Below, piece after piece: positions 23,183 through 56,435 of a DNA stretch of 56,469 bases (its first letter is position 1; every line of letters starts with the position of its first letter). This DNA comes from Nitrospirota bacterium. GTDB taxonomy: Bacteria > Nitrospirota > Nitrospiria > Nitrospirales > UBA8639. A program made the translations under genes and the position numbers. Below the pieces are notes generated by a model. The model had not been told where the DNA came from. It saw nothing but the letters and a program-made list of their open reading frames with translations, and ran no database searches. The stretch spans positions 1-56,469 of the forward strand of contig JAQBUF010000016.1 in the NCBI GenBank assembly GCA_027623995.1, read 5' to 3'.

Positions 23183-23262
23183 TCGCTCGTCGCAAAAAAA
23201 ACGAGTAACAGGTTATGATCGACAAATTACGAGATACGAAATACGAGATACGAGATACGAAA
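23166..23262. repeat. Two period-7 repeat arrays spanning the murG stop and murC leader
   Basis: At 23166-23193 four heptamers follow in register (TAGTCGC, TGGTTGC, TAGTCGC, TCGTCGC) and include the murG stop codon. At 23228-23262 five more occur: TACGAGA, TACGAAA, TACGAGA, TACGAGA, TACGAAA. The second array ends four bases before the murC ATG and occupies the place where a ribosome site would normally be. Confidence 0.85.
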
Positions 23263-25617: not shown

Positions 25618-25737
25618 TATCTCGTATCTCGTGGTTCGTATCTCGTGAAAGAAAACTTCCTGAGAGACCGGGAATACGCAGAGAGAACCGAACTGCAAAA
25701 CACGAGATACGAAATACGAGATACGAACCACGAGACA
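25618..25737. repeat. Inverted pair of heptamer arrays between murB and ddl
   Basis: The left arm (25618-25645) is TATCTCG, TATCTCG, TGGTTCG, TATCTCG; the right arm (25703-25737) is CGAGATA, CGAAATA, CGAGATA, CGAACCA, CGAGACA. The arms are reverse complements in sequence and register, including the rare CGAACCA unit, so the RNA could fold into a long hairpin around a 55-base centre. The right arm ends four bases before the ddl start codon. Confidence 0.85.
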
Positions 25738-31099: not shown

Positions 31100-31184
31100 C
31101 GTGATTCGTCATGCGTAATCCGTCATGCGTAAAAAATTAGATTCTTTCGCTTCACGCTTCACGCTTCACGGATCACGCTTCACG
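31100..31184. repeat. Inverted pair of CGTNNNN heptamer arrays before yggS
   Basis: The left array (31100-31134) reads CGTGATT, CGTCATG, CGTAATC, CGTCATG, CGTAAAA. After a 13-base spacer, the right array (31148-31182) reads CGCTTCA three times, then CGGATCA, CGCTTCA, which are reverse complements of the CGTGAAG and CGTGATC type. The array ends about nine bases before the yggS ATG and no clear Shine-Dalgarno sequence remains. Confidence 0.85.
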
Positions 31185-39929: not shown

Positions 39930-40117
39930 AAATTCCTCGAGATTGGAATGGTATAGAGATTTTCCACTCTTCTCTGGTGGCGAAGGGCTATGGCCATCCG
40001 ATTTCGCCATATTGTGGTCCGTAGGGTCGCTGGTTATCAGTGGATTGAGGCCAGTGACAATATAAGCCAGTTGATGATTCGGGACTTTCACTCTCCGAAT
40101 GGCGACTGGCTTTTTTT
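39930..40117 (+). promoter_or_regulatory. Candidate attenuator/riboswitch-like leader upstream of sulP
   Basis: The leader contains blocks shared with the mnhE leader in the same order: AATGGT (39947), GGCCAT (39992), GATT, CATATT, GGTC, GTAGGGT (40021-40027), GTGACA (40054-40059), and TA(T/C)AAGCCA running into a terminator hairpin. The distance from GTAGGGT to GTGACA is 33 bases in both. The terminator ends 23 bases before the sulP start. I cannot assign it to a known RNA family by eye. Confidence 0.6.
40065..40117 (+). terminator. Leader terminator upstream of sulP
   Basis: AGCCAGT (40065-40071) pairs with ACTGGCT (40105-40111), enclosing an inner ATTCGG/CCGAAT pair (40077-40082 and 40095-40100), followed by seven Ts (40111-40117). 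Its structure parallels the terminators before dabA and mnhE. Confidence 0.8.
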
Positions 40118-40140
40118 ATAAGTCCAGGAAATCTGAAGAA

Positions 40141-41769
40141 ATGGAAATACCTAAGGGCAATCTCACGGGGCTTCGGAACAATTTTCCGGCTGATCTGCTG
40201 TCTGGTTTTCTTGTATTTCTCATTGCCTTGCCGCTGTGTTTGGGTATTTCGCTGGCCTGTGGGTATCCTGCCATCTCCGGCATTTTTACGGCTATCATTG
40301 GTGGCCTGGTCGTCACCTTCTTTAGTAATTCTGAACTTACCATTAAGGGGCCGGCCGCTGGTTTGATTGTGATTGCCATTGGTTGTGTCACGGAATTTGG
40401 GTTTACGGGTGGGAAGGATCCTACTGCCGATTATCAGGCGTATCGGTTAGCACTTGGCGTGGGGGTGGCAGCGGGAATTCTTCAAATTCTTCTTGGAGTG
40501 TTCCGTGCAGGAATCCTCGGTGAGTTTTTCCCGACAACCGCGATCCACGGATTGTTGGCAGCCATTGGGGTCATCATTATTGCCAAACAGTTTCCCATCA
40601 TGCTGGGTCTTAGCCCTGAAGGCAAACCCTTAGAACTCCTGGCGAAGATACCAATATTTGTCATGGAGATGAATCCCAAAATTGGATTCATTGGAATTAT
40701 CAGCCTCCTGATCATGTTTGGGTATACCCTGATCCGCAATCCCCGTTTAAAAGTGATCCCGGCACCAATGATTGTGTTGGTTGTTGCCGTACCCCTAGGT
40801 TTGTTCTTGAAAATTGGTCAAGAAGGCACCTACACCTTTCATGATCGGGCGTATGAGTTGGGCCAGAAGTTTTTGGTGGATGTTCCTATGAACATGTTCA
40901 ATGCGGTAACCTTTCCCGATTTTTCTGGATTAACGACGGTGATTGGGATCAAGTATGTGATCATGTTTGCGATCATTGGGAGCCTTGAATCCTTGTTAAG
41001 CGCCAAGGCGATTGATGGGATTGATCCTTGGGGGCGAAAAACCAATATGGATCAAGACATGGTAGCAGTGGGGATTGGCAATACCTTGGCGGCCTTTATC
41101 GGAGGGTTACCCATGATTTCCGAAATCGTTCGGAGTAAGGCGAATATCGACAATGGAGCACGGACGCGGTTTGCCAATTTGTTTCATGGACTGTTTTTGT
41201 TGGTATTCGTGGCGTTGATTCCCGAGGTCATCAATCGGATCCCTTTGGCAGCCTTAGGGGCGCTGTTGGTCTTTACTGGATTTCGCTTAGCGGCCCCTCG
41301 TGAGTTCGTGCATATGTATCATTTAGGCAAGGACCAGTTCATTATTTTTATGTCCACAATTGTGGGGGTCCTTGCGACCGATCTTTTGATGGGTATTGCT
41401 ATTGGCATTGGTGTGAAAGTCATCATTCACATTATCAATGGAGCGCCCATTCTCTCATTTTTCAAATTGAATGCTGAGGTCATTCGCGAAGATGAACATT
41501 CGGCGACAATTGTGATTCGTGAGTCCGCGGTGTTTAGTACATGGATTCCTTTACGCAAATATCTTCATCGATATCTGCAGGAAGGGAAAAATGTCACATT
41601 GAATTTTTCTGAGACTCGGTTGGTCGATCATACGGTGATGTCCAAACTCTATGAATGGATTATGGAATTCGAGGAGCATGATTGTGAACTTTTTGTTCGA
41701 GGATTAGCGGAGCATGAACCAATGGCTGATTCGATTGTGGCGGCGCAGGTTAAGCGGGTAAGGAACTAA
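40141..41769 (+). CDS. SulP family transporter with STAS domain, probable bicarbonate transporter
   Basis: The 542-residue protein has a SulP transport core of about 12-14 helices (NLTGLRNNFPADLLSGFLVF, then LPLCLGISLACGYPAISGI, TIKGPAAGLIVIAIG, AVGIGNTLAAFIGGLPMISE) and a C-terminal STAS domain (about 455-540; KNVTLNFSETRLVDHTVMSK). SulP proteins of the BicA type import HCO3- with Na+; others move sulfate. Linkage with dabA, mpsC and an Mrp-type antiporter favours bicarbonate. The in-frame ATG 40099 lies inside the terminator hairpin, so ATG 40141, with AGGAAA about ten bases upstream, is preferred. Confidence 0.9.
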   Translation: MEIPKGNLTGLRNNFPADLLSGFLVFLIALPLCLGISLACGYPAISGIFTAIIGGLVVTFFSNSELTIKGPAAGLIVIAIGCVTEFGFTGGKDPTADYQAYRLALGVGVAAGILQILLGVFRAGILGEFFPTTAIHGLLAAIGVIIIAKQFPIMLGLSPEGKPLELLAKIPIFVMEMNPKIGFIGIISLLIMFGYTLIRNPRLKVIPAPMIVLVVAVPLGLFLKIGQEGTYTFHDRAYELGQKFLVDVPMNMFNAVTFPDFSGLTTVIGIKYVIMFAIIGSLESLLSAKAIDGIDPWGRKTNMDQDMVAVGIGNTLAAFIGGLPMISEIVRSKANIDNGARTRFANLFHGLFLLVFVALIPEVINRIPLAALGALLVFTGFRLAAPREFVHMYHLGKDQFIIFMSTIVGVLATDLLMGIAIGIGVKVIIHIINGAPILSFFKLNAEVIREDEHSATIVIRESAVFSTWIPLRKYLHRYLQEGKNVTLNFSETRLVDHTVMSKLYEWIMEFEEHDCELFVRGLAEHEPMADSIVAAQVKRVRN

Positions 41770-46423: not shown

Positions 46424-46921
46424 ATGGCAACGAAACCTAGACCAGTATCTTCTGAATTCTTAGTCCTGAAAGCTGCGGCAATATTTGTCTTGTGGATGAT
46501 GTTGTCTGCCAGCTCCGAATGGATTCACTTGGGGTTGGGGCTGGTGCTTTCCTTCACGGTGGCTTGGATTAATTCTGGTCATTCCCCTTTTGTGCCGAAC
46601 TTCCGTTTGTGGGGCAACATTCTTCTGTATGTTCCGTGGCTCTTTTTGAAAATCGTCCAAAGTAGCCTTCATTTGACCAAGCTGATTCTTCACCCTGACC
46701 TTCCCATCAATCCTCGGTTGATTCGGGTTGAGACCAAATTACGCCATGATGCGGCAGTCGTCCTCCTTGGCAATTCCATCACATTAACACCAGGTACGAT
46801 CACTGCGGAGGTTGACCATCATTCACTCATGGTCCATGCCATGGATGAGATTTCAGCGGAAGACGTCACGAGTGGACGCCTTGAGTCCAAAATTGCTGAA
46901 GTCTTTCGAAACGAAAAGTAA
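46424..46921 (+). CDS. mnhE: Mrp/Mnh antiporter subunit E
   Basis: MnhE is a small membrane subunit of the multisubunit Na+/H+ antiporter. The 165-residue product has two to three N-terminal helices, LWGNILLYVPWLFLKIVQSS, and the family motif NSITLTPGTITAEVDHHSL in its cytoplasmic tail. It is the first gene of a nine-gene operon with mostly overlapping starts and stops. Confidence 0.9.
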   Translation: MATKPRPVSSEFLVLKAAAIFVLWMMLSASSEWIHLGLGLVLSFTVAWINSGHSPFVPNFRLWGNILLYVPWLFLKIVQSSLHLTKLILHPDLPINPRLIRVETKLRHDAAVVLLGNSITLTPGTITAEVDHHSLMVHAMDEISAEDVTSGRLESKIAEVFRNEK

Positions 46922-46926
46922 CGTTG

Positions 46927-47193
46927 ATGAAAATGTTTTTTCTCGGTGTCTTAATCGTGTTGGCCATTCTCATTGGCGCCTATTTATATCGTGTCCTCCA
47001 GGGCCCGACGATTTTTGACCGGGTGTTGGGGCTCAATGCGATATCGACCAAGGCGATTATTTTACTGGTGCTGATTGGATTGGTCTTTGACCGAGTCGAT
47101 ATGTTCGTGGACATTGCCACCGGGTATGCCCTCCTGAATTTGGTCGGGGCACTCGCGGTCGCAAAATATTTGGAACAAAAAGGACTTCCGTAA
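46927..47193 (+). CDS. mnhF: Mrp/Mnh antiporter subunit F
   Basis: The 88-residue, three-helix protein shows GPTIFDRVLGLNAISTKAI and VDIATGYALLNLVGALAVAK, typical of MnhF. TTG 46924 is immediately before ATG 46927; the ATG is taken as start. It lies five bases after mnhE and one base before mnhG. Confidence 0.9.
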   Translation: MKMFFLGVLIVLAILIGAYLYRVLQGPTIFDRVLGLNAISTKAIILLVLIGLVFDRVDMFVDIATGYALLNLVGALAVAKYLEQKGLP

Positions 47194-47194
47194 C

Positions 47195-47494
47195 ATGGAG
47201 TTTGTGTCCATCTTCTTTATCATCGCAGGATTATTTTTTTTGATTGTGGCGGCGATTGGCGTGCTACGACTGCCTGATGTTTTTAGTCGGTCTCATGCGG
47301 TGTCATTGACGGACTCGTTAGGCGCCTTTCTGATGTTGTTCGGTGTTGCCATCCATGAGGGGTTGAGCAAAAACCTCATGAAAATCCTGGCCGTGTTGGC
47401 ATTACTCTATATTCAAAATCCCGTCATTGCGCATGCGACTGTGCGGGCCGCTCTTCGTGTTGGATTGAAACCATGGAAAAGGGAAGCCTCATGA
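47195..47494 (+). CDS. mnhG: Mrp/Mnh antiporter subunit G
   Basis: The 99-residue, three-helix protein shows FFLIVAAIGVLRLPDVFSRS and LTDSLGAFLMLFG, the MnhG/PhaG signature. It overlaps the following DUF4040 gene by four bases (ATGA). Confidence 0.9.
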   Translation: MEFVSIFFIIAGLFFLIVAAIGVLRLPDVFSRSHAVSLTDSLGAFLMLFGVAIHEGLSKNLMKILAVLALLYIQNPVIAHATVRAALRVGLKPWKREAS

Positions 47495-48021
47495 CCTTTT
47501 CATTTGAAATTCTTCTGTTGATTCTCCTTCTGGTCACGGCGGCTGGAGCCATTTTAGTCAAAGACTTGATGAGTGCCATTTTACTCTTGGGGTCCTATAG
47601 TTTTTTCTTATCGTTAGTCTGGGCATGGTTCGGGGCGGTGGATGTGGCGTTTGTTGAGGCCGTCGTGGGTTCGGGATTAGCAACTGTCCTGTTTCTGCTG
47701 ACTCTCTTTGGGACAGCGCCCAAAGATAGTCGTCTTCGTCGTCCGCCTCCTCCCATGGCTGCATTGGTGGCGCTGCCTCTTTTGGGAATTCTCTTGCTCT
47801 ATGCCGCGAATGATCTTCCTCAATTCGGAGATCCGAACTCTCCGGCGAATGTGCACATCTCGCCGACCTATCTCGAACAGAGTTACCGGGATACGCATAC
47901 CCCGAATGTGGTGACCGCCGTGCTCATGGATTATCGCTCCCTCGATACCATGGTGGAAACGGTGGTCATATTTACGGCTGGTATCGCTTGCGCATTGTTA
48001 CTGAGGAGGCACGCCTCATGA
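47491..48021 (+). CDS. DUF4040/MbhD-type subunit with MnhB-like tail (split MrpA C-terminus)
   Basis: The 176-residue membrane protein has an N-terminal DUF4040 region (LILLLVTAAGAILVKDLMSA, then AFVEAVVGSGLATVLFL) and a C-terminal part with NVVTAVLMDYRSLDTMVETV and a last helix, as in MbhE or the tail of MrpA. In canonical Mrp these pieces are the C-terminal domains of MrpA; here they are encoded apart from the NuoL-like protein downstream. ATG 47491 overlaps the mnhG stop; the frame's earlier start lies inside mnhG. Confidence 0.82.
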   Translation: MTFSFEILLLILLLVTAAGAILVKDLMSAILLLGSYSFFLSLVWAWFGAVDVAFVEAVVGSGLATVLFLLTLFGTAPKDSRLRRPPPPMAALVALPLLGILLLYAANDLPQFGDPNSPANVHISPTYLEQSYRDTHTPNVVTAVLMDYRSLDTMVETVVIFTAGIACALLLRRHAS

Positions 48022-48470
48022 TTCGACCTCATGACAGTATCATTGTTCAGTCCTTGGGACGCTTTCTCATTCCTGTGATCCAAATCTTTGGGCTGTACGT
48101 ATTGTTCTTTGGACAATATGGTCCTGGGGGCGGGTTTGTGGGTGGAGTAATATTAGGCACCAGTATGATTTTGTCCGTCCTGATTTTTGGTCATGATGCT
48201 TCGCGGAGCCAGATCGCCAAAAAAATCTTGCATGGCGATGGGGTTGGCATGTTGATTTATGCTGGTGTCGGCGGCTTGTGTATGATTGGAGGTGGGGAGT
48301 TTTTGAATTATGCGGAATTGGACATCCCCGGTCTTGAAACGGCGGCACGCCGATCTTTGGGTATTGTCCTTACACAAATTGGTGTCGCCGTGGATGTCGC
48401 GGTCACTGCGGTATCCATTGTGTTTAGTCTCTCTGCGGAAGAGATTATTGAGGATTCTCTGAATGGTTGA
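48018..48470 (+). CDS. mnhB: Mrp/Mnh antiporter subunit B
   Basis: The 150-residue protein has four helices and the MnhB motifs GLYVLFFGQYGPGGGFVGGV and LTQIGVAVDVAVTAV. The ATG at 48018 overlaps the preceding stop (ATGA), and mnhC starts eight bases before its end, showing tight translational coupling. Confidence 0.9.
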   Translation: MIRPHDSIIVQSLGRFLIPVIQIFGLYVLFFGQYGPGGGFVGGVILGTSMILSVLIFGHDASRSQIAKKILHGDGVGMLIYAGVGGLCMIGGGEFLNYAELDIPGLETAARRSLGIVLTQIGVAVDVAVTAVSIVFSLSAEEIIEDSLNG

Positions 48471-48840
48471 TGCCTTGTCAGCGGTCTTCCAGCGCCCCAA
48501 CTTTCTGGCGTTTGTCATCATTTTTCTGTGGGGATTTTATATTATGGTGACGCGGTACAACCTCGTCAAAAAACTCGTAGGGATGTATCTCGTGCAAACG
48601 AGCGTGATCTTTTTTCTTGTGTCCATCAGTGCGAAGAAAGGGGCAACGGCCCCCATCCTCTTGTCGACGACGGATCCTGTGCACGCGATCAACTATGTCA
48701 ATCCGTTACCTCATGTGCTGACATTGACAGCCATTGTGGTTGGTGTCGCCACGTTAGGCGTTGGCTTGGCATTGTGTTCGGCAATCTATCGGAGATATGG
48801 AAGCCTTGATGAAGAAGAAATTCTCAAACGATTAGAATGA
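48463..48840 (+). CDS. mnhC: Mrp/Mnh antiporter subunit C (NuoK-like)
   Basis: The 125-residue protein has three helices and resembles MnhC/NuoK: WGFYIMVTRYNLVKKLVGMY, LVQTSVIFFLVS, and PLPHVLTLTAIVVGVATLGV with the conserved acceptor position. It overlaps mnhD by four bases. Confidence 0.88.
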   Translation: MVDALSAVFQRPNFLAFVIIFLWGFYIMVTRYNLVKKLVGMYLVQTSVIFFLVSISAKKGATAPILLSTTDPVHAINYVNPLPHVLTLTAIVVGVATLGVGLALCSAIYRRYGSLDEEEILKRLE

Positions 48841-50306: not shown

Positions 50307-52492
50307 GCACAACCATGCCTGTCTTTGTTCTGATCCCTCTTCTCCCCCTGCTCGCGTCTCTCATCTTGGTCCTTGGAGGACGCCGTTGGGGTGAGCACAG
50401 TCATCGGATCGGGATTCCTGCGATTGGCCTTTCATTTGGATTATCTGTCGGGGCGTTCCTCGAAGTATTGAGGAACGGGCCGTTCTCTATTTCCCTCTAT
50501 CGTCTCTTCCAATCGGGATCACTGGCCATTGATGTAAATCTCTATGTGGATCAGCTAACCGTTCTTATTCTGCTTTTGGTGACGGGACTGAGTGGGATCG
50601 TCCATGTCTATTCCTCTCGCTATATGATTGGGGATCCACGGTACAACCGCTTCTTTGCGGTCATCGCGTTGTTTACCTTTTCCATGGTGTTGTTAGTGAT
50701 GAGTGGCAACCTTCTGATGTTGTTGGTCAGTTGGGAGGTGATGGGGATTTGTTCGTATCTCCTGATCTCGCATTCGGCACAAAGACCCTCGGCATGCCGG
50801 GCCGCGACCAAGGCTTTTTTGGTGAATGCCGTGGCAGACGTTGGATTAAGTTTTGGAATTATTATGACCTTTTTCACGTTTGGCACCCTCGACATCCAAA
50901 CTATTCTTGGTCAGGCTGAAAGCATGAAAGATCACACCATCAATATCATGGGGTGGATGGGATTGGACATGCACATCTACCCAGTGACGTTAATCCCGTT
51001 TTTTTTATTTTTGGGTGCCATGGGCAAATCCGCACAAATGCCGTTCCATGTGTGGTTGCCGTTTGCGATGGAGGCTCCAACCCCTGTCTCAGCGCTCATT
51101 CATGCTGCGACTATGGTGAATGCGGGCCCATTCTTATTGGTAAGATTGAGTCCGTTGATTGTCTTGTCCCCCTTTGCCATGACATTCATCGCAATTGTCG
51201 GAGCCACAACCGCGGTATTTGCTGGTATTGTGTCCTTGACCCAGTCGGATATTAAAAAGATTTTGGCCTATTCCACAATCAGTCAAATCGGTTTCATGAT
51301 TATGACCTGTGGCCTGGGTGCATTTGCGGTTGCGGTTTTTCATCTGTTGGCTCATGGGTGTTATAAAGCCTTCTTTTTCCTTTCCACTGGCAATGCGCTT
51401 CGATCGGTGGAGCCGGGTCATGGACATGAGGCCAGCCTTCATCCTCCACCGAAGGGCATGGGTATCTTGTATGGTGGGGCCTTATTCCTTGCATGCCTGC
51501 CTCCGTTTATTTTGTTTTCCGGGTCCTATGAATACTTGTGGGGGGTGACGGGATTTACCTCTGCCACAATTGGGTTTAGGATCATTGGCCTGATGACGGT
51601 CTTTGTGACTTCTATCTACCTCTTTCGAAGTGTCACGTCGATATTTGTTCACGGCCCCAAGACGTATTGGCCCGCCTCTGGACACTCCCCTTTGGAACCG
51701 CATTCCATCCGACCTCAATTCCTGAATGGGTCGATACTGAGTAGCCTTCTTTTGGCGATCATCCTTCTGGGAGTCATGTTGACCTTGTTTTGGAGTTGGT
51801 TTGCCAACTTCTTGGCTCCGGCGTTGACCTACCCAGGCATGTCGGTACATGAAGGAATAGTGGATTCCGGCTCAAAGATTTGGCTTTTGGTCTCTATTGG
51901 AGTGGCCATTGCCGGGTGGGCATTTGCCTATTCGCGTGCTCGATCTGGAACACAGATGGTGGGGGCCGTGAACAGGAGCACACGATTGTATGTCTTGTTC
52001 TGGAATAAATTGTATTTTGACGAAATCTACGATGCGTATTTGGTGAACCCCACGATTCGATTCTCCCATTGGCTTTGGCGGAATATTGATATCCGAGTCA
52101 TTGATAAAGTCATTCATTCGATCGCCATCTATTCTGTGGTATTTGCGCAATGGCTTTGGAGGGTGGTGGATGTGAATGGCATTGATCGAATCGTCGTTGG
52201 ATTTGGACAGCAGAGTGTTGGGATGAGTCAATGGCTGTGGAGGGTGGTGGATGTGAAAGGCATTGATCGAATCGTCGTTGGTCTTGGACAGCAGAGTGTT
52301 GGGATGAGTCATTGGCTGTGGCGAGTGATTGATATTAAGTGGTTGGAACAAAGGATTGGGCAAGTGGGAAAGCAAGCAGATACGGCAGGGAAATTATTGC
52401 AGGCAGCTGAGCCTCGCACCATCCAACATCAATTATTAGTGATGATCGTGTGGCTGGTCTTGGCGACGGTGTTATTGTATATCTTGGTCTAA
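50303..52492 (+). CDS. NuoL-like antiporter subunit (MrpA/DabB-type) with tandem C-terminal repeats
   Basis: The 729-residue protein is homologous to NuoL and the N-terminal part of MrpA. Proton-path residues are the Glu in LLVSWEVMGICSYL, the Lys in LGAMGKSAQMPFHVWLPFAM, and the Lys pair in QSDIKKILAYSTISQIG; LYFDEIYDAYLV marks the NuoL tail. From about residue 590 to 697 four 27-residue repeats follow (W-L-W-R-x-x-D), then a terminal helix. NuoL ends in a lateral helix; here that region is lengthened by repeats. It is the likely membrane partner for DabA. TTG 50303 overlaps the mnhD stop; ATG 50315 is an alternative start. Confidence 0.88.
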   Translation: MSTTMPVFVLIPLLPLLASLILVLGGRRWGEHSHRIGIPAIGLSFGLSVGAFLEVLRNGPFSISLYRLFQSGSLAIDVNLYVDQLTVLILLLVTGLSGIVHVYSSRYMIGDPRYNRFFAVIALFTFSMVLLVMSGNLLMLLVSWEVMGICSYLLISHSAQRPSACRAATKAFLVNAVADVGLSFGIIMTFFTFGTLDIQTILGQAESMKDHTINIMGWMGLDMHIYPVTLIPFFLFLGAMGKSAQMPFHVWLPFAMEAPTPVSALIHAATMVNAGPFLLVRLSPLIVLSPFAMTFIAIVGATTAVFAGIVSLTQSDIKKILAYSTISQIGFMIMTCGLGAFAVAVFHLLAHGCYKAFFFLSTGNALRSVEPGHGHEASLHPPPKGMGILYGGALFLACLPPFILFSGSYEYLWGVTGFTSATIGFRIIGLMTVFVTSIYLFRSVTSIFVHGPKTYWPASGHSPLEPHSIRPQFLNGSILSSLLLAIILLGVMLTLFWSWFANFLAPALTYPGMSVHEGIVDSGSKIWLLVSIGVAIAGWAFAYSRARSGTQMVGAVNRSTRLYVLFWNKLYFDEIYDAYLVNPTIRFSHWLWRNIDIRVIDKVIHSIAIYSVVFAQWLWRVVDVNGIDRIVVGFGQQSVGMSQWLWRVVDVKGIDRIVVGLGQQSVGMSHWLWRVIDIKWLEQRIGQVGKQADTAGKLLQAAEPRTIQHQLLVMIVWLVLATVLLYILV
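52070..52393 (+). repeat. Four tandem 81-bp coding repeats in the NuoL-like gene
   Basis: Copies begin at the TGG codons at 52070, 52151, 52232 and 52313, exactly 81 bp apart. Copies two and three are nearly identical in DNA; the first and fourth are diverged. The encoded unit starts WLWRVVDVNGIDRIVVG and continues with an amphipathic GQQSVGMSQ segment. Confidence 0.92.
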
Positions 52493-52584: not shown

Positions 52585-54069
52585 ATGATTAGTTGGATGA
52601 TTGTCGTTCCTTTTTTAGGAATTATTGTCATGGCGTTTGTGCGAGATGAAGAATGGATCCGACGAGTCGCCTTTGGGACTACGATGATCGAGTTTGGCCT
52701 CGCACTCGTCCTGTGGAAAAGTTTTGATTCCACGAAACAGGGCATGCAATTTGTGGAGCGTGTGGAGTGGATGCCGACCTTCAATATTCAATATGCGGTT
52801 GGTGTGGATGGCATCAGTATTCTTATGGTCCTGCTCACCACTCTGCTTTGTCCACTCTGTATCCTCTGCTCTTGGAGTGCCATTACCACGCGAGTGCGAG
52901 CCTTTATGTCGCTAATCTTGCTGGTTGAAGGGGCTATGTTGGTCGTCTTTACGGCATTAGATCTTTTTCTCTTCTTTATGTTGTGGGAACTCACCATGAT
53001 TCCCATGTATTTCATGATCATACTTTGGGGAGGTCCAAATCGTATCGCCGCAGGAATTAAATTTGTCTTGTACAGCCTCACCGGCAGTTTATTACTGTTG
53101 TTGGGCATACTTGGTCTCTACCTGGAAGGTGGACAAACCTACGACATGTTGGTGCTCAGCGAACAGACTTATTCCTCCAAGACGCAATTTTGGCTATTCC
53201 TGGCGCTCTTTTTGGCATTCGCCATTAAGATGCCGATGGTCCCCTTTCATACTTGGTTGCCTGATGCGCATTCCGAAGCCCCAACGGCTGGCAGCGTGGT
53301 CCTGGCTGGTGTGCTTCTGAAAATGGGGGGATATGGATTTTTGAGATTTTGCCTGCCGATGTTTCCAGAAGCTTCCATGTTGTTCGCTCCGTATATTTTA
53401 TGGCTATCCGTGTTAGCCATAATCTACGGTGGCTATATGGCCCTGGCGCAGTCTGATCTCAAAAAACTTGTGGCCTATTCCTCAGTCTCGCATATGGGCT
53501 TTGTGACCCTTGGGATTTTTGTTTTTAATAGCCAGGGGATTCAAGGTGCAATCTTACAAATGTTTAATCACGGCATTACTACAGCAGCCTTATTCCTTTG
53601 CGTTGGACAACTGTACGACCGCACTCATAGTCGAGCAATTTCTGACTATGGTGGATTGCACAAACCCATGCCCAAATTTGTGGCTTTGTTTTTCCTGTTC
53701 TCCGTAGCGGCCTTTGGTCTTCCTGGTACGTGCAATTTCATAGGGGAATTTTTGGTGTTAGTTGGGACATCCTATATCAGCTTCGCTATGGTACTTCTCT
53801 CGATGGGAGGGATTGTCCTGGCAGCTGCCTATATGCTGTGGATGTTACAAAAGGTGGCGTTGGGGGAAGCGAATACAAAAGCCGTTGAAGGGCTCCCAGA
53901 CTTATCAAATAGGGAATTGGCTACGGTGATTCCCTTAGCGATCCTCGTACTTTGGATCGGATTGTACCCCGGACCCTTAATGGAAATGATGGATGCGAGT
54001 GTGACGCATTTGGTGAGTCAGATGGGTGAGGTGCAAATTGCACAATCGTATCCTGCTGTTTATCCCTAG
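52585..54069 (+). CDS. NuoM-like antiporter subunit
   Basis: The 494-residue protein is closest in motif to NuoM: YAVGVDGISILMVLLTTLL, LFFMLWELTMIPMYFMI, FAIKMPMVPFHTWLPDAH, QSDLKKLVAYSSVSHMG and FNHGITTAALFLCVGQLYDR, which hold the proton-path Glu, Lys and His. Start ATG 52585 has AAAAGGA upstream. It ends the operon. Together with the NuoL-like subunit and MnhD it gives three antiporter-like channels, more than a standard Mrp complex with two. Confidence 0.9.
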   Translation: MISWMIVVPFLGIIVMAFVRDEEWIRRVAFGTTMIEFGLALVLWKSFDSTKQGMQFVERVEWMPTFNIQYAVGVDGISILMVLLTTLLCPLCILCSWSAITTRVRAFMSLILLVEGAMLVVFTALDLFLFFMLWELTMIPMYFMIILWGGPNRIAAGIKFVLYSLTGSLLLLLGILGLYLEGGQTYDMLVLSEQTYSSKTQFWLFLALFLAFAIKMPMVPFHTWLPDAHSEAPTAGSVVLAGVLLKMGGYGFLRFCLPMFPEASMLFAPYILWLSVLAIIYGGYMALAQSDLKKLVAYSSVSHMGFVTLGIFVFNSQGIQGAILQMFNHGITTAALFLCVGQLYDRTHSRAISDYGGLHKPMPKFVALFFLFSVAAFGLPGTCNFIGEFLVLVGTSYISFAMVLLSMGGIVLAAAYMLWMLQKVALGEANTKAVEGLPDLSNRELATVIPLAILVLWIGLYPGPLMEMMDASVTHLVSQMGEVQIAQSYPAVYP

Positions 54070-56323: not shown

Positions 56324-56435
56324 CGTGAAGCGTGAAGCGTCATGCGTGAAGCGTAAAGCGTGAAGCGTGAAGCGTCATGCGTGAAGCGTCATGCGTGAAG
56401 CGTAAAGCGTGAAGCGTAAAGCGTGAAGCGTAAAA
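56324..56435. repeat. Sixteen-unit heptamer array (CGTGAAG, CGTAAAG, CGTCATG)
   Basis: Sixteen 7-bp units follow without a break: CGTGAAG nine times, CGTAAAG three, CGTCATG three, and a final CGTAAAA. All begin with CGT and differ only in the last four bases. It lies directly after the last gene and continues the repeat family seen before yggS. Confidence 0.95.

Follow-up and report, generated by a model that had tools for sequence, protein, structure and literature searches.

Tandem expansion of the lateral helix in a NuoL-like subunit of a predicted DabA-Mrp-type complex from Nitrospirota

The DabA-Mrp-NuoL-NuoM locus

The window, i.e. the entire 56,469-nucleotide stretch of Nitrospirota DNA that was analysed, carries on its forward strand an operon whose members are DabA and Mrp-type genes, with no hydrophilic Nuo subunits among them. 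The genes, assigned by domain search, lie in the order DabA (PF10070, 43107-46145), MnhE (46424-46921), MnhF (46927-47193), MnhG (47195-47494), an MbhD/MbhE-like protein (47491-48021), MnhB (48018-48470), an MnhC/NuoK-like protein (48463-48840), an MnhD-like antiporter subunit (PF00361, 48837-50306), a NuoL-like subunit of 725 amino acids (50315-52492, taken also from the open reading frame list) and a NuoM-like antiporter subunit (52585-54069). In Mrp, the counterpart of the MbhD/MbhE-like protein is the C-terminal part of MrpA. The complement of MrpA and MrpB-G genes is complete in the operon, but MrpA is split between the MbhD/MbhE-like and NuoL-like proteins, and NuoM is additional. A SulP-type transporter is encoded at 40099-41769, upstream of DabA, and several homologous loci likewise have one close to DabA.

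The NuoL-like protein has PF00662 at its N-terminus and a PF00361 domain, which places it in the NuoL/ND5 family, and its top Foldseek matches are NuoL/ND5 chains. DabA shares the operon with a PF00361 partner, as DabAB systems do. DabB is absent from the operon, and the locus does not correspond to a two-subunit DabAB with a DabB of ~550 amino acids, as the protein in question has 725 residues and an array of repeats and there are three antiporter-like subunits.

The repeat units

The array (52070-52393) consists of four in-frame units of 27 residues (81 bp each) in the lateral-helix (HL) region of the NuoL-like protein. It is preceded by a conserved HL entry sequence (LYFDEIYDAYLVNPTIRFSH, 52010-52069) that is common to canonical NuoL, and is followed by the array exit and the last transmembrane helix, the TM16 equivalent (52394-52489), which is helical to residue 724 in both structural models described below. 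The units start at 52070, 52151, 52232 and 52313, with W586, W613, W640 and W667 as leading residues, and read in order WLWRNIDIRVIDKVIHSIAIYSVVFAQ, WLWRVVDVNGIDRIVVGFGQQSVGMSQ, WLWRVVDVKGIDRIVVGLGQQSVGMSH and WLWRVIDIKWLEQRIGQVGKQADTAGK. Every unit opens with WLWR and contains D-(I/V)-x-x-(I/L)-(D/E). An earlier note on this DNA had described such units in the lateral-helix region of a NuoL-like subunit, and the sequence, the Pfam domains and the HL entry bear this out, with the unit starts exactly as given there.

Unit 1 (52070-52150) is of a 'first' type, units 2 and 3 (52151-52312) are of a 'middle' type, and unit 4 (52313-52393), of a 'last' type, continues into the final transmembrane helix. 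Between units 2 and 3 there are five differences in 81 positions (94% DNA identity, 89% protein identity), and the pair represents a recent duplication, as had been proposed. DNA identity between the remaining unit pairs is 44-53%, and only the central pair was caught by Tandem Repeats Finder (score 313) and by a direct-repeat finder. What identifies the outer units is the WLWR opening and the D-x-x-x-x-(D/E) motif common to all four, along with their retention in homologues. A hidden Markov model of the unit, built partly from these same units, scores 47.9, 44.9, 47.1 and 10.4 bits for units 1-4. The outer units are old, as the earlier note held: unit 1 shares 52-78% identity with its counterpart in close three-unit relatives and only 37% with its own neighbour. 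In middle units, W1, L2, W3, D7, D12 and S22 are more than 90% conserved. Against an assembly artefact stand the differences between the two central copies and the presence of arrays of three units (G012, G018) or four units (G017, G020) in genomes assembled as single contigs.

Homologues and the series of tail lengths

Homologues were sought in 60 relatives, in ~85,000 species genomes, in the phylum and in the family. The array-bearing protein was matched in Nitrospirota, Nitrospinota, Acidobacteriota and Planctomycetota, and in the window's family 36 of 49 genomes, spread over all 10 genera, have the NuoL-like protein. One genome (G334) matches the array-bearing gene twice, on contigs C486 and C501, which may represent paralogues or mixed strains.

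The tail, counted from the conserved YFDE motif up to the C-terminal end, was measured in 56 non-redundant homologues. Its length is 79, 106, 132-134, 160-162 or 188 residues in almost all of them, which follows 52 + 27n for n from 1 to 5. The clustering is strong (Rayleigh R 0.92), with the p-value only indicative since the proteins are related. The unit counts across DabA-locus homologues that the earlier note called for are accordingly stepwise; length tracks unit count, and the opposing case of homologues of equal length that lack repeats fails. A few members of a diverged branch described below, together with Bryobacterales, fall off the series; these have 26-residue or eroded units, and unit number by length is therefore uncertain for them. 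In one locus (L054) the gene set is complete, and the tail has canonical length and lacks the WLWR motif.

In each canonical complex I NuoL protein hit, the unit profile finds a single match, where the HL region begins and the motif reads LWKRVDVxVIDGAVNGIARA; the phylum search agrees. The canonical NuoL of the same genome has a tail of 78 residues by the YFDE-based count, equal to n = 1. As canonical NuoL holds one copy of the motif at the HL, the array is read as an expansion, by tandem copying, of the HL signature found in canonical NuoL. Judged by this sequence match, the first unit is not new but has a counterpart in canonical NuoL.

Evolution of unit number and selection

A tree of the protein core, with the tail left out, requires 13 or more changes of unit number, and sister taxa differ. 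Among 24 three-unit proteins, units at the same position are more similar between species (identity 0.51, 0.54 and 0.40) than units within a protein are to one another (0.33). Units thus fall into first, middle and last types with fixed ends, and gains and losses occur in steps of 27 residues, mainly of middle units. In the window a middle unit was duplicated; in a Nitrospina array (L074) the additional units resemble the first unit. Since different unit types were duplicated, these two expansions are independent.

Among 14 pairs of close orthologs, 13 give an omega of 0.01-0.30 for the units and the remaining one gives 0.59, compared with 0.08-0.27 for the core. The units are under purifying selection, as is the core, and a decaying or junk array is ruled out by these low values. 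In one clade, 11 of 12 members have four units, and the length remains in register. The four units are not a product of chance or decay.

Gene context and number of pump genes

Whatever the value of n between 1 and 5, homologous loci that reach past both neighbours of the array gene encode a single MnhD, a single NuoL and a single NuoM, and no extra antiporter gene was found in the window or in homologous loci with sufficient flank. DabA is found upstream of the array gene wherever the flank is long enough. In three genomes (G001, G003 and G006; loci L117, L113 and L114) a second, divergent DabA-DabB cassette lies between the operon DabA and MnhE. Loss of the operon DabA from these genomes was considered and proved wrong, as the orthologue is present just past the inserted cassette. 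The cassette of G003 also holds SulP and a CBS-domain gene.

A diverged lineage (G280, G270, G039 and G251; loci L122, L123, L124 and L147) has the gene set DabA-L-M, with DabA directly adjacent. Both flanks are readable only in G270, where no Mrp genes are present on either side and a SulP gene is nearby; the other three loci stop at contig ends. Proteins of this lineage retain one to three recognisable units, so the array is not limited to an Mrp context. The minimal set of DabA, NuoL and NuoM possibly encodes a three-subunit DabA complex. With D, L and M constant, and with units kept in DabA-L-M loci, unit number is not tied to the number of antiporter genes.

Predicted structure of the tail

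Two AlphaFold2 runs were made with different alignments, the second with four-unit proteins only. Overall confidence is 63 with the four-unit alignment and 74 with the other, and the helix breaks are the same. Both models show a NuoL fold and a tail that is helical throughout, with pLDDT of ~38-58 in units 2-4; because of these low values only the periodic segmentation of the models is used. The breaks, at 620-625, 645-649 and 672-674 in both low-confidence tails, coincide with D-x-x-G of units 2 and 3 and D-x-x-W of unit 4. This segmentation is consistent with the sequence, in which the segment that starts at position 10 of a unit and ends at D7 of the following one has its maximal hydrophobic moment at 100 degrees. 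The HL would lie between the last two transmembrane helices; its entry sequence is conserved, and it is helical in both models at low confidence.

Relation to known systems

Insertions of 26-27 residues in the HL have been described in '2M' complex I and in Complex_I_3, where they are postulated to span an extra pump, an idea credited there to earlier work by Chadwick et al. (2018); HL insertions are also reported in complexes without an extra pump (PMC9040806). The NuoL of 2M complex I and the MrpD2 of Complex_I_3 resemble the present protein in the size of the HL insertion, in being distal antiporter-like subunits and in their occurrence in Nitrospirota. They have a single insertion, mostly together with an extra pump gene, whereas loci of the window type have up to four extra tandem units and no extra pump gene, and the window locus is of the DabA-Mrp kind without hydrophilic Nuo subunits. 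The genome of the window itself encodes a 2M-type complex I (locus L119, contig C86), with a NuoL of 663 amino acids, two NuoM of 524 and 548 and a NuoN-like protein of 500. The tail of this NuoL is about one unit longer than that of canonical NuoL but has no WLWR repeats.

The HL of MrpA and NuoL is an amphipathic helix between TM15 and TM16 that acts as a cytoplasmic brace and is comparable to the array; in MrpA it braces the Mrp complex and links the TMH7s on the cytoplasmic side (PMC7419157). The canonical NuoL HL has one unit, whereas array proteins have up to five. DAB2 (DabA2-DabB2, PMC13144422; PDB 9rd0) also pairs DabA with a NuoL-like partner, but DabB2 is ~550 amino acids long with a short HL, while DabA of the window is grouped with NuoL-like, NuoM-like and Mrp subunits. 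A Nitrospira locus with Mrp genes and two extra nuo-like genes, and with a bicarbonate transporter in alkalitolerant species, is probably of the same kind, to judge from the passages that describe it; those passages mention neither repeats nor DabA (PMC7784846, PMC12342949). A literature search, subscription papers excepted, found no report of repeats in the lateral helix. A one-unit HL insertion (26-27 residues) has been published before for complex I that carries an extra pump; what is new is a stepwise, recurrent and multi-copy expansion, up to five units, that is uncoupled from pump-gene number.

Possible roles of the array

The reading that we prefer, at about an even chance of being correct, is that the HL has been expanded in tandem within a membrane complex of DabA, Mrp, NuoL and NuoM predicted for nitrite oxidisers and their relatives, to form a jointed cytoplasmic brace whose surplus braces or docks DabA. 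Each unit may form one amphipathic helix of ~22-25 residues, tentatively with a kink at D-x-x-G at its end, and the conserved Trp residues would sit as they do in interfacial helices. By analogy with the HL of Mrp and complex I, the units would lie on the cytoplasmic membrane face. There they would make up a brace that exceeds the need of the antiporter row, and the surplus length would most likely brace or dock DabA. DabA is favoured as partner because no other non-antiporter protein accompanies the array in every sufficiently flanked locus. The earlier note had also proposed a docking surface for DabA, and the upstream DabA genes are compatible with one. The wide tolerance of length would fit a strap with repeated contact patches rather than a strict ruler. 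Docking of DabA is the weakest step in this scheme. A short HL suffices for DabB2 to bind DabA (PMC13144422), so a long HL is not needed for DabA as such, and co-occurrence of array and DabA may merely mirror operon inheritance.

The earlier note suggested a molecular ruler for a larger complex, and this part of it is not supported where more pump subunits are meant. In a strict ruler, each unit, ~40 Å long if straight, would span one antiporter-like subunit, and extra MnhD or NuoM copies would come from the single genes. In length the unit matches the HL insertion found in 2M complex I and in Complex_I_3 (PMC9040806), and the 2M NuoL of the same genome, with its longer tail, is encoded in a cassette with two NuoM. 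Yet n varies from one to five against an unvarying set in which D, L and M each occur once; DabA-L-M loci have fewer antiporters and still hold one to three units; and HL insertions occur without an extra pump (PMC9040806). A ruler by gene count is ruled out at the gene level by the first two of these observations. With a constant gene set, a strict ruler is viable only if single-gene subunits occur in several copies. We know of no member of the NuoL/Mrp-type family in which several copies of one antiporter gene product are present per complex. A strict ruler is therefore considered improbable, and a further idea, that unit number is a length code setting NuoM or MnhD copy number along the HL and giving variable ion-coupling stoichiometry, is more doubtful still.

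A neutral drift of copy number, in which slippage of an amphipathic helix is tolerated and function does not depend on how many middle units there are, is somewhat more probable than a ruler, though unlikely. The 13 or more changes in number, the differences between sister taxa and the near-identical copies in the window, in L074 and in other arrays are as such drift would produce. On the other hand, the units are constrained as strongly as the core, six residues of the middle units are more than 90% conserved, and the clade of 12 in which 11 members keep four units shows a steady number, with length in register. Drift of unit number is thus a serious rival, and drift of sequence is not. The excess of the array over the need of the antiporter row also raises the question of whether the HL reaches a neighbouring complex, as in an Mrp-like dimer or a supercomplex. 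An Mrp dimer is known, but its interface is mainly MrpE (PMC7419157), and units are present in loci without Mrp as well; this linkage has little probability in our judgement.

In complex I, an HL insertion is currently taken to indicate an additional pump subunit. Because the 27-residue step is present here up to four extra times without an extra pump gene, HL length alone is an unsafe proxy for pump number. Whether the lateral helix serves as strut, strap or coupling rod has long been debated, and a natural series of one to five units in a constant gene set makes its role directly testable. The locus also points to a little-studied, predicted carbon-uptake complex of DabA, Mrp, NuoL and NuoM in major nitrite oxidisers.

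Other repeats in the window

Tandem Repeats Finder also detected arrays of heptanucleotides in the window, at 56324-56431, 31148-31184, 23228-23260 and 25698-25735. CGTGAAG (56324) and CGCTTCA (31148) are one heptamer on opposite strands, and heptanucleotide repeats of the TACGAGA type are likewise present.
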